Positions 1-3,318 of a stretch of 37,519 bases of DNA are shown in pieces. Every line of letters begins with the position of its first letter. Position 1 is the first letter of the stretch. This DNA comes from a virus. Both the position numbers and the translations under genes were made by a program. Below the pieces are notes generated by a model that was given only the letters and a program-made list of their open reading frames with translations, ran no database searches and was not told the origin of the DNA. The stretch covers positions 1 to 37,519 of IMG/VR virus record IMGVR_UViG_3300025133_000306, one strand, 5' to 3'.

Positions 1-54
1 CCCACACAAGAGTGGCCGTGTAGATTTACAAATTTTAGATTTGATTTATTCAAT

Positions 55-1218
55 TTAGATAGGTTGATAATAAGTTTTTAATTTAAGCCACACATTAGTA
101 GAAGTGTCTAGCTGCATTGATTTTTTTGGTCTCCGTTCGCCTTCGCGAAGATAGAGTTTTTCTCCCTTGTGGAACCCAGTCTTATTAGCCCATGCACCAT
201 TAGAATTAATAGTAAGGGGCATATCTCCAATTAGAATTTCTTTACCATTTTTTGTAAAAGCAAATCTAATTGCTTGTCGGTATCTATAGACCTTAAGTAT
301 GGAAGTTGCTAAATCTTTATAGAGTTTTTTAAAATCTGGATTGAGATACGAGTTTAAAATTTTAATGCCGTTTTTATCGAAAGCACTAAAACTTAAAACT
401 TTATTTGTTGCACCCGGGTCTAAGCCGGCACGGGAGAGAAAGCGGCTCTGTAGAATACTTAAAAAATCTGGATTTTCCTTAATGACTTTTGTTAACATTG
501 TTTCAAAGAATTCCGCAGCTTTATTTCCATGGAGTTTTGTAATTTCTGTCCAATTGTCTGGTTTCCATTCTTCATACCTTAATTGCTGCACTTCGCGGGT
601 AAGGGCTAGCATCGGCGTAATATCTATATTATAATATTGGATAAAATACTTTTTTACTTTTTTATAATCTTTAGATAGAAACTCTTCTCCAGTGGACGTC
701 TTAAACTTTCCTCGACCAACAACCACGAAAAACAGACCACACAACGTGGAGAGCCAAGTTCCTGAAGCAACTTGCGGATTCGCAAGTTTGGCGTATTGTT
801 TTAAAGAAAAGAATACTGTCTCACAAGAGGAATCTGTTTTCCAAATCTTAATAGCAATATCTGCTTTTTGAGTGACTGTCTCACTTAAGCCTTTTTTATT
901 ATAAGGAATAATCTCAACTTGATTTATGTTATCAAAGCCTCCGAACATAACTTCTATTGTTTTCTTGATATCAGCTGCGCTAACATCAGTCAGCGGCCCG
1001 ATCTCCCCTCTCTTCTTGGAGAGGCTTTGTTTATCTTTCTCTGAAATGTTTGCGCTAGCGTTTTCCTCTTCTTCGTTCAGGTTAAGCCGGCATGTATTTA
1101 AATTGTCGCGACGCAATAAACTTTCTTCTTCAAACATTTGAGCCAAGACAACACAGCAGCGCGACTCCTCTAACGATTCTGCTCTACGAAGCAGATTTCT
1201 TTCACATAATTTCTTCAT
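55..1218 (-). CDS. Putative PD-(D/E)xK restriction endonuclease-like protein
   Basis: This 387-aa protein follows the methyltransferase gene by 14 bases, in the same direction. It probably cuts DNA. Around residues 119-142 it reads ADIAIKIW, then VFFSLKQY, so an Asp (D120) is followed 18 residues later by S-L-K (K140). This matches the core spacing of PD-(D/E)xK nucleases in which the second acid is replaced, as in several type II enzymes. Glu102 (VEIIPYN) could be the helix acid. Residues 1-60 are charged and probably helical. The start ATG has only a weak ribosome site, so translation may be coupled to the gene upstream. It could instead be a degenerate or solitary phage nuclease. The family is inferred from one motif plus context, and no exact enzyme is recognised. 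Confidence 0.5.
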   Translation of the reverse strand: MKKLCERNLLRRAESLEESRCCVVLAQMFEEESLLRRDNLNTCRLNLNEEEENASANISEKDKQSLSKKRGEIGPLTDVSAADIKKTIEVMFGGFDNINQVEIIPYNKKGLSETVTQKADIAIKIWKTDSSCETVFFSLKQYAKLANPQVASGTWLSTLCGLFFVVVGRGKFKTSTGEEFLSKDYKKVKKYFIQYYNIDITPMLALTREVQQLRYEEWKPDNWTEITKLHGNKAAEFFETMLTKVIKENPDFLSILQSRFLSRAGLDPGATNKVLSFSAFDKNGIKILNSYLNPDFKKLYKDLATSILKVYRYRQAIRFAFTKNGKEILIGDMPLTINSNGAWANKTGFHKGEKLYLREGERRPKKSMQLDTSTNVWLKLKTYYQPI

Positions 1219-1232
1219 TGGTATATTTTAAA

Positions 1233-2645
1233 TCAAAGAGGATAATTAAGAGCATCAGCAACAAAAATATTATTATTTATAATACTTTCTGCACTTTCCT
1301 GAGCGTGTCCGTGTTCTGAGCATATGTCCAGAAGCCTCTTTCTAGATTCTAGAATGTTATCTTTCATTATATCAACCCCATAAAGGGTCTTGAGAGCCGG
1401 GATGAGTCCTACACCATGCGCAAGTCGAGTCCTTAAAATCTCGACTAAAAAATTCCCATTGCCGCATGCAGGATCTAGAAATGTTTTTTCCTCACTTTCC
1501 CACACGGTCAGCGGTACCTGTTCCATCATATTGCATACTAATTCTTGTGGGGTAAAAACCTCCCCCAGATGTTTAATCCTTTCATTGCCCTTTGTTTCAC
1601 TTTTATTTACTTTTTTTGTTTTTTTCTTCGCTGTGGGTGTTAAGAGATATTTCTTTTCCGATTCAGACAATGAAAATAGTTCATAATAATCTTCATTAGT
1701 AAAATCTCTGTCTAAGGAGATCTTGGGAATACGACTAAATACAATCTCGTTACCGAATCCTGACCACTTAGCAGTTCGAAAGACATATTGCATCAAAGGA
1801 GAGTTTAAATAATGGGCTAGCCGTTGCCCCTGAAGGTCATCGGACACAATTATATAATATCCCATATCCGTACACCCCAATTTTCCATCGTCATAAAAGG
1901 GCTTCGTGTACCCCGATCTGGACCACATTACTTTTTTCTTTCCTGCAAAGTCTTGCCGGATTGATGAATACCAAGTTTTTTTATTTGTATGTAACAAAGG
2001 ATGGATGTGTTGAGATGTTCTTTTTTCACTAACTGAAATATTAATTGTTTTTTGTTTTTCTAAGAGAGATGCCAGCTTTTTTTCGGCTTTCTCTTTTTGT
2101 GTTTTAGTTAGTTCGGTTTCCAGACATGCTCTCGTAGTAATAATTTTCTTATTGTTTAACTTTTCCGCATGCCGGATAACATTATGGCATGTGACATAAT
2201 CGTAACCAACATCAAAAGTCTCATGTGGTTTAAACATAACTTTCTCGTGAATGTTAATAGACTCTCGACAAAAGTCATTGGGAATGTAGAGAATGTTGGG
2301 TGAGAGTTTAAACTTAAATTCCTGATTGTCTTGAATAAATGAAGTTGTGGGTAGATCTTCTGTTTTTTTCTGAATTTTGTACTGACTAAAAGAACTACCG
2401 ATATGAGGGAAAAAATCTCTTGTATCTAAATCCACATGAATAAGAGCGTATTTTTTAAAGAGTTTTAAAATTTTGTTACTTGGGGATCCCCACGATTGGG
2501 GTGTAATCCAGCAAAGATACCCCCCCTCGGCTAACCATTCATCAAGCGCCTTGATTGTGAACTCTTTCCAAAGTTTATGCTGAGTTTTATTTCTAGTTAG
2601 ATTATTTTGAAAAGGAGGATTTCCAAAAATGACGTCATACCTCAT
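1233..2645 (-). CDS. DNA adenine N6-methyltransferase with permuted motif order
   Basis: This protein transfers a methyl group from S-adenosylmethionine to adenine in DNA. Near the N-terminus is the catalytic NPPF motif (FGNPPFQNN). Next comes a long middle part that should hold target recognition, then a Lys-rich linker at about residues 335-360. The C-terminus carries motif X (GEVFTPQELV), motif I (DPACGNGNFL, about residues 393-402), an acidic motif II (YGVDI) and motif III (ADAL), and the protein ends there. In Eco57I/HsdM-type enzymes ADAL is directly followed by the NPPY/F strand, so this chain looks circularly permuted. Two ATGs compete, at 2651 and 2645. The second is chosen because GGGAG lies 8 bases before it and only 2 before the first. 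The nuclease gene follows. Confidence 0.85.
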   Translation of the reverse strand: MRYDVIFGNPPFQNNLTRNKTQHKLWKEFTIKALDEWLAEGGYLCWITPQSWGSPSNKILKLFKKYALIHVDLDTRDFFPHIGSSFSQYKIQKKTEDLPTTSFIQDNQEFKFKLSPNILYIPNDFCRESINIHEKVMFKPHETFDVGYDYVTCHNVIRHAEKLNNKKIITTRACLETELTKTQKEKAEKKLASLLEKQKTINISVSEKRTSQHIHPLLHTNKKTWYSSIRQDFAGKKKVMWSRSGYTKPFYDDGKLGCTDMGYYIIVSDDLQGQRLAHYLNSPLMQYVFRTAKWSGFGNEIVFSRIPKISLDRDFTNEDYYELFSLSESEKKYLLTPTAKKKTKKVNKSETKGNERIKHLGEVFTPQELVCNMMEQVPLTVWESEEKTFLDPACGNGNFLVEILRTRLAHGVGLIPALKTLYGVDIMKDNILESRKRLLDICSEHGHAQESAESIINNNIFVADALNYPL

Positions 2646-2659
2646 GCGCATCGCTCCCT

Positions 2660-3223
2660 TTAGTTCCCAAATTTCATCGTGCCATTCTTCAATGCAATCT
2701 CAATATGATCACCATTGAACCAGCGGCCATGAGTGGAAAACTCTTTGACGGTCATTGGACTTTTAGAAACAAGAGTTGATTGACCTGACTTATAGTCCCA
2801 TTGGTCATTCACAAACTCAATATCAAAATACATCCCGCGATACTCATAAAGCATTTCTGCAAACTCACTTTCCATATCTTCATGGAAGGTAGTCTGGATA
2901 TCATCCACATCATAATCCTCTCCACTATCTTCTAGTTCCTCCTCGTTATCAGAGATAATGCCGCCCTCTTCTAGTTGGGTCTTGGCGTCTAGTGCAAACT
3001 CCGGAATGGGATCGTTGTCGTCAAAATAATTTTGAAAGGCTTCTTGATAAAAGTCATAAAGCGGACTGAGAAGTTCTGAGTTTTCTAGATGCTCTACTTG
3101 GTCATAGTGATTGATGTTATTATATGTCTCGACATCTTCGAAAACAACTGTGATAGGTCGTTCTCCAGATAGATGATCCAGACTGGTTTCAATGAATTCC
3201 ATTGCTTCTTCAAATTTATTCAT
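2660..3223 (-). CDS. Highly acidic protein of unknown function
   Basis: This 187-aa protein is not recognised. Counting residues gives about 46 Asp/Glu against about 10 Lys/Arg, and the acids are spread over residues 4-145, with a dense run near residues 88-108 (EEELEDSGEDYDVDD). The C-terminal 45 residues are more balanced and contain aromatic residues (GRWFNGDHIE). There is no signal peptide or membrane segment. It is the first gene after a strong promoter, with a GGAGA ribosome site (TCTCC at 3230-3234), and lies 14 bases ahead of the preferred start of the methyltransferase (8 bases from the upstream ATG). The charge pattern resembles phage DNA-mimic inhibitors such as Ocr or ArdA in general character only. 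An anti-restriction role or control of the neighbouring modification genes is an inference. Confidence 0.85.
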   Translation of the reverse strand: MNKFEEAMEFIETSLDHLSGERPITVVFEDVETYNNINHYDQVEHLENSELLSPLYDFYQEAFQNYFDDNDPIPEFALDAKTQLEEGGIISDNEEELEDSGEDYDVDDIQTTFHEDMESEFAEMLYEYRGMYFDIEFVNDQWDYKSGQSTLVSKSPMTVKEFSTHGRWFNGDHIEIALKNGTMKFGN

Positions 3224-3248: not shown

Positions 3249-3288
3249 AAAAACCCCCGTCGTCGGTCATTTTCGACGGGTACGGGGG
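3249..3288 (-). terminator. Intrinsic terminator overlapping the promoter of the acidic-protein operon
   Basis: On the minus strand CCCCCGT (3288-3282) pairs with ACGGGGG (3260-3254), and an inner CGTCG/CGACG stem continues it. TTTTT follows (3253-3249). It would stop transcripts arriving from the lipoprotein operon. The predicted start of the promoter at 3290-3318 falls at about 3283, inside the first arm, so transcripts from that promoter would carry only part of the stem. Confidence 0.7.
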
Positions 3289-3289
3289 T

Positions 3290-3318
3290 ATTATACCACG
3301 GGGAGAGCCCCGTGTCAA
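3290..3318 (-). promoter_or_regulatory. Sigma-70 promoter, consensus -35 and -10
   Basis: The minus strand has TTGACA (3318-3313), a 17-base spacer and TATAAT (3295-3290), an exact match to the sigma-70 consensus. It drives the acidic protein and probably the methylase and nuclease genes. The -35 box lies in the loop of a GC-rich inverted repeat (GCCCCG/CGGGGC at 3307-3312 and 3328-3333). Confidence 0.9.

Follow-up and report, generated by a model that had tools for sequence, protein, structure and literature searches.

A putative phage-encoded restriction-modification pair predicted to act at TTSAA, and its relatives with site-free genomes

HinP1I is a restriction enzyme whose catalytic motif reads SD-x18-QxK, and AgsI is an enzyme of bacterial origin. 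The sequence recognized by AgsI is TTSAA, S standing for C or G (PMC3925983). A virus-borne restriction-modification (R-M) pair, CviAII of the chlorella viruses, is cited in PMC4081073, and the ability of phages to attack host DNA with endonucleases once their own DNA is modified is discussed in PMC7824862; among cyanophages, R-M-like pairs are annotated in Syn19 (R.RsaI and Dam) and in P-SSM4 (a 'restriction endonuclease II' and methyltransferases). Here we analyze a 37,519-bp fragment of an IMG/VR virus genome (IMGVR_UViG_3300025133_000306; the whole of this stretch is the window), whose left end carries three consecutive minus-strand open reading frames of 187, 472 and 387 amino acids (aa), at positions 3223-2660, 2651-1233 and 1218-55, with intergenic gaps of 8 and 14 bp. 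A first-pass annotation had recognized the three adjacent genes and proposed that a methylase and a PD-(D/E)xK nuclease among them form a complete R-M system. That proposal is supported by the fold of the nuclease, its invariant active site, the linked occurrence of the nuclease and methyltransferase genes and a selection signal at TTSAA that is tied to the nuclease, all of them computed, and we regard it as highly probable that the 387-aa and 472-aa proteins make up a Type II R-M system carried by the phage, the former predicted to cut TTSAA and the latter to protect it.

The nuclease probably belongs to a family of TTSAA-specific nucleases, widespread among phages, that works with two interchangeable means of self-protection, namely methylation, for which the permuted methyltransferase may be split or fused, and complete removal of the site from the phage genome, a state that would have arisen at least twice and in which the nuclease needs no partner.

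The nuclease and its active site

Searches with the 387-aa protein (55..1218, minus strand) returned nothing from Pfam, NCBIfam and PADLOC and only noise from PHROGs, and phmmer and hmmsearch gave no match among PDB sequences, so that homology with HinP1I or MspI goes undetected at the sequence level. While the window proteins used alone as direct queries retrieved almost no relatives, tblastn revealed weak relatives of the nuclease in two cyanophages, P-RSM6 and S-SZBM1, and profile searches extended the family to 23 and later 60 viral contigs, plus two contigs from bacterial metagenome-assembled genomes (MAGs). An AlphaFold2 model built from a 16-row alignment reached a predicted local distance difference test score (pLDDT) of 80.9 and a predicted template modeling score of 0.78. 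When this model was compared with the PDB by Foldseek, the best three matches were to HinP1I (E 1.7e-5 and 2.2e-4) and MspI (E 2.0e-3), with probabilities of 0.99-1.00, the remaining matches listed having probabilities of at most 0.25.

Across 36 dereplicated nucleases, K118, D120, K140, Y142, Q149 and S152-G153-T154 are invariant (36/36) and S138 is present in 35, to which a further set of invariant residues is to be added, comprising N340-G341-x-W343, R363, K366, T372, S373 and N375. The protein thus combines the core fold of the PD-(D/E)xK enzymes with a conserved acidic residue and a conserved lysine, arranged as K118-x-D120 ... S138-x-K140 (codons of the putative catalytic D120 and K140 at 859..861 and 799..801, minus strand), and varies on that theme in having Ser138 at the position of the second acidic residue. 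E102, a candidate third catalytic residue conserved in a 3-row alignment, proved variable in the 36 rows and was rejected. The first-pass annotation had singled out D120 and K140 and had beforehand let its case hang on the fold and on the conservation of the key residues; what emerged is a restriction-enzyme fold and, in every representative, both of these residues. Fold and conservation support the assignment of the 387-aa protein as a predicted nuclease of the PD-(D/E)xK restriction-enzyme fold.

The TTSAA signal

A phage that encodes a sequence-specific nuclease without a methyltransferase should have a genome free of the nuclease's site. On this premise, 752 palindromic patterns were scanned in nuclease-bearing phages and in control cyanophages without the nuclease, the expected counts being derived from a second-order Markov model, and TTSAA stood out from all the others. 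Its observed and expected counts were 0/716 in S-SZBM1 and 0/654 in P-RSM6, and 0/182, 0/119 and 0/234 in three further records that carry the nuclease without a methyltransferase (G010, G011 and G012); altogether, nuclease-bearing phage sequences without this methyltransferase contain 0 TTSAA sites versus about 2,258 expected. In the controls the observed/expected (O/E) ratio was 0.72-1.05, and in S-SZBM1 and P-RSM6 variants of TTSAA with one mismatch are unpurged (O/E 0.64-1.47). A larger set, which overlaps with the records just counted, gave zero TTSAA in 13/13 loci without a methyltransferase, whereas loci bearing one all retain the site (O/E 0.08-0.86), a pattern that points to one and the same site for nuclease and methyltransferase. 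When 32 comparable palindromes, TTSAA among them, were ranked in 27 methyltransferase-bearing loci, TTSAA proved the most strongly depleted in 18, as expected if protection is imperfect.

One record, G002 (IMGVR_UViG_3300006329_000001), was considered as a counter-example on account of its 179 TTSAA sites and was dismissed as such, because the record is mosaic and all of these sites, the last at position 51,262, fall within a foreign part whose identity to P-RSM6 is about 70%; the part that carries the nuclease, about 90% identical to P-RSM6, has 0 sites over some 105 kb where about 353 are expected. The identity to P-RSM6 jumps from about 70% to about 90% at about 51.3-52.2 kb, and the record is probably either chimeric through assembly or the product of recent recombination.

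Other candidate sites were set aside. CCGG is missing from both P-RSM6 and S-SZBM1 and would suit an MspI-like fold, but hardly any T4-like cyanophage without the nuclease contains it either; GCGC and CGCG are absent from P-RSM6 but present in S-SZBM1, GCGC being absent from several controls as well; and the depletion of AGCT near the nuclease is general to cyanophages. The lack of CCGG is an observation in its own right, for among the T4-like cyanophages sampled, which include the Kyanoviridae control stretches, it is nearly universal with or without the nuclease (Syn19 0/39, S-WAM1 0/47, P-TIM40 0/36), CCGG being present in ACG-2014f, S-CAM7 and podoviruses. Other palindromes are purged to an extreme degree in G005 (54.5 kb; GTSAC 0/44, GGWCC 0/43), G006 (60 kb; CASTG 5/110) and S-CAM7 (GGCC 0/114), and each of these purges may be the trace of an additional restriction enzyme, whether encoded by the phage or by its host.

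The methyltransferase, its linkage to the nuclease, and competing explanations

The 472-aa protein (1233..2651, minus strand) matches the Pfam families Eco57I (PF07669, aa 2-70) and N6_Mtase (PF02384, aa 357-412) above their cut-offs, and its two halves are matched by phrog_3689 and phrog_21201. Judged by its motifs, it is an NPPF adenine-type methyltransferase, with both the motif I and the motif IV (NPP[YF]) that characterize N6-adenine DNA methyltransferases. Motif IV, NPPF (aa 11-14; 2610..2621), lies near the N-terminus, and motif I, DPACGNGNF, the putative S-adenosylmethionine (SAM)-binding segment (aa 393-401; 1449..1475), near the C-terminus, from which it follows that the usual order is circularly permuted; a motif X-like GEVFTP (aa 363-368; 1548..1565), located by alignment as was motif IV, precedes motif I, all three being encoded on the minus strand. 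The linear gamma-class order X-I-IV is accordingly missing from this protein, whose order is permuted and beta-like. Among 29 methyltransferase-bearing representatives, NPPF is found in all 29 and DP[AS]CG in 28, the remaining one having EPAAG. Two separate, overlapping genes, NPPF first and DPACG second, encode the enzyme in 24 of the 29, the parts being fused in the other five and in the window, so that split and fused forms together illustrate how circular permutation comes about in nature through the splitting of a gene. An NPPF enzyme needs an adenine and TTSAA contains adenines, which makes the site compatible with this methyltransferase. A separate motif X-I fragment with an altered SAM motif, DNSAG, accompanies an Eco57I-type methyltransferase in Synechococcus phage ACG-2014f (L005:4953-8900) and S-CAM7 (L006:1529-5354), and the ACG-2014f cluster also has a possible Mrr-like nuclease (a weak match) and a helicase alongside.

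Of 33 nuclease clusters, 28 have the permuted NPPF methyltransferase adjoining the nuclease or separated from it by a single gene, both gene orders being represented, and the window has the pair side by side too, which is the linkage and co-inheritance characteristic of Type II R-M systems; four of the five remaining clusters are without a methyltransferase, and the fifth is the contig that continues the window, whose methyltransferase lies in the window itself. Two of the methyltransferase-bearing loci are on bacterial contigs with chromosomal genes: a Micrococcales MAG has the order hflX-nuclease-methyltransferase(a)-methyltransferase(b)-lexA, along with his genes, and a Limnochordia MAG has nuclease and methyltransferase with dprA and recQ nearby. 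A protein of about 375 aa with no family match stands between nuclease and methyltransferase at L016:2817-3893, L022:6865-7992 and L025:6818-7972; since near relatives lack it, it may be mobile.

With the same profile that detects the methyltransferase in positive controls, neither S-SZBM1 nor P-RSM6 gave a match anywhere in its complete genome. In P-RSM6-type cyanophages the nuclease lies near a UvsW-like helicase, again with no methyltransferase. This helicase and the 2OG-Fe(II) oxygenases found beside the cyanophage nuclease were entertained as functional partners and rejected, the helicase being common in cyanophages (418 records) and the oxygenases recurring in control phages. The nuclease tree requires at least two changes in methyltransferase presence, each accompanied by a complete TTSAA purge: methyltransferase-less nucleases are found in the P-RSM6/S-SZBM1 group, intermixed with methyltransferase-bearing relatives, and in L127, which forms its own deep branch, a long one beside another long branch and of unsure exact position. 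At least two lineages without a methyltransferase are hence predicted to be protected by their site-free genomes.

On the mechanism that we propose, phage DNA would be methylated by the 472-aa enzyme at an adenine within 5'-TTSAA-3', and TTSAA without this mark would be cleaved by the 387-aa endonuclease; in an infected cell, the chromosome of the host and any co-infecting DNA, their sites being unmodified, would be cut whereas the phage's own DNA would be spared. Lineages that lost, or never had, the methyltransferase would protect themselves by removing every TTSAA. The use of TTSAA by the window enzyme itself is predicted from relatives that bracket it.

Several observations weigh against this mechanism. 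The TM-scores between the nuclease model and HinP1I are modest (0.35/0.50), and the structure model of the fused methyltransferase is unusable (pLDDT 47). Methyltransferase-bearing phages are themselves partly depleted of TTSAA, so that protection may be incomplete or other forces may act. In the window, moreover, TTSAA is only mildly low (119 observed, 164 expected) and ranks fifth of 32 palindromes, with CTWAG, AAWTT and GAWTC lower, and the nearest relative is distant (nuclease about 36% identical, methyltransferase about 50%). Together with the placement of the window and L105 as a separate pair on a long branch of the nuclease tree, this weak signal might be taken to mean that the same R-M pair recognizes another site in the window's branch. 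We consider this rather unlikely. In the sister record, L105/G008, no other 5-bp palindrome is as depleted as TTSAA (22/103, z -8.0), and L127/G011, a deep branch on the opposite side of the tree, has none (0/119); TTSAA is assigned to the window phage because these two bracket it, and the nuclease residues listed above from N340 to N375 are invariant.

That avoidance of TTSAA is caused by restriction in the host and not by the phage's own nuclease would be in keeping with the frequent avoidance of host restriction sites by phages, and the lack of CCGG in nearly all tested T4-like cyanophages, irrespective of the nuclease, could be cited in its favor; yet phages of the same host strains that lack the nuclease have normal TTSAA counts, both on NATL2A (observed/expected 216/206 in P-SSM4, 209/200 in P-RSM3 and 156/175 in P-TIM40) and on CB0101 (150/149 in S-CBP1 and 179/170 in S-CBP3), and within the mosaic G002 the purge is confined to the nuclease-carrying part, all of which makes this explanation extremely improbable. 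Scarcely more can be said for the idea that the nuclease is a PD-(D/E)xK enzyme of recombination or packaging next to which an independent, anti-restriction methyltransferase happens to lie. Orphan methyltransferases are indeed frequent in phages, and the helicase neighbor of the partnerless P-RSM6-type nuclease might hint at such a role; against this, the helicase is common in cyanophages and the nuclease was found in two isolates, every one of the best structural matches is a restriction enzyme with sequence specificity, the linkage persists across many loci, in both gene orders and on two bacterial chromosomes, and a purge that is specific to one site implies a sequence-specific cutter. We therefore hold this idea to be very improbable and retain the R-M system as the preferred explanation.

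The pair adds a restriction-endonuclease family that is absent from Pfam, NCBIfam, PADLOC and PHROGs as searched and for which a site of 5 bp is predicted. Within a single nuclease family it further provides a natural experiment, in which phages bearing the methyltransferase keep TTSAA and those without it have none, thereby making the cost of self-restriction visible at the scale of the genome. As P-RSM6 and S-SZBM1 are named phages with methyltransferase-free versions, whether the target is the host chromosome or a rival phage can be tested directly.

Genomic surroundings and comparison with described systems

The gene that precedes the pair encodes an acidic protein of 187 aa (2660..3223, minus strand; pI 4.05, net charge about -36) to which no role is assigned: it has no match in Pfam, NCBIfam, PADLOC or PHROGs, and neither the phage collection nor the set of nuclease loci yielded a relative. 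On sequence comparison it adjoins the R-M pair but is outside the conserved unit, and its earlier inclusion in the cassette is not upheld. Upstream of it, at 3290..3318 on the minus strand, is a promoter-like TTGACA-17-TATAAT with an extended -10 (TG), which matches the sigma-70 consensus at 12/12 positions and is a consensus match only. Between this element and the first ATG of the cassette lies a terminator- or attenuator-like hairpin (3255..3287, minus strand; fold -18.8 kcal/mol, z -1.95) followed by a T tract, TTTTTACTTTTT. The strong promoter of the first-pass annotation is borne out as a perfect consensus at 3318-3290, whereas joint transcription of the three genes from it is unsupported because the hairpin and T tract intervene.

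That annotation had also noted a base composition apparently more AT-rich than in the tail genes, and the cassette is indeed AT-richer than the remainder of the window (62.7% vs 55.6%), and stretches of the same length (3.2 kb) sampled elsewhere reach at most 61.1%. Contig L002 overlaps the left end of the window by 503 bp with 0 mismatches, and it extends what had been taken for a run of three genes: directly behind the nuclease comes a DnaE-type DNA polymerase III alpha (Pfam DNA_pol3_alpha), whose first 17 codons lie in the window (1..53, minus strand; aa 1-17 at 53-3) and the rest on L002, and thereafter a PurA-like gene and a dUTPase. The window also encodes ThyX, a ribonucleotide reductase and a DnaB-like helicase, and the surroundings taken together are, as far as annotation of the sequence can tell, a nucleotide-metabolism and replication neighborhood in a contractile-tailed phage outside the standard T4 type, contrary to the earlier classification; the family B polymerase (gp43) of a T4-like replisome was not found, the next gene being of DnaE type and the helicase DnaB-like, although one could be present beyond the sequenced part. 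A location beside replication and nucleotide genes suits the destruction of host DNA for its nucleotides, and the exclusion of other phages is an equally possible role alongside it. The PurA-like adenylosuccinate synthetase (L002:4117-5154), which adjoins DnaE and the dUTPase, is short (345 aa) and has a weaker match to PurZ, the 2-aminoadenine enzyme (137 bits against a cut-off of 300); its retained GDEGKGK motif makes PurA more likely than PurZ. The tail sheath protein (window:25967-28945, 992 aa) is about twice as long as the matching PHROG profile (496), which suggests a large insertion.

No description of the nuclease family, or of its purged relatives without a methyltransferase, was found in the literature searched, which covered few subscription journals and did not extend to REBASE, and some of this may be known elsewhere. 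The pairs annotated in chlorella viruses, Syn19 and P-SSM4 resemble that of the window in that a virus, a lytic one in those cases, has annotated genes for both a nuclease and a methyltransferase; the nuclease profile has no match in P-SSM4 or Syn19. The methyltransferase is closest to NPPY/F adenine methyltransferases of the Eco57I/Alw26I type (PF07669, PF02384, TIGR02987), which both of its halves match and with which it has NPPF and DPACG in common, but its order is IV...X-I instead of X-I-IV and most of its relatives divide it between two genes. HinP1I (GCGC) and MspI (CCGG) are by far the best PDB matches of the nuclease and have its predicted fold, and the D-x17-S-x-K spacing of the window protein resembles the HinP1I motif; it differs from both in its length (about 387 aa vs about 250), in a middle motif residue that is Ser and not Gln/Asn, in the lack of detectable sequence similarity and in a predicted site that is 5 bp long and A/T-rich. 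That site, predicted from its avoidance in relatives, equals the recognition sequence of AgsI.

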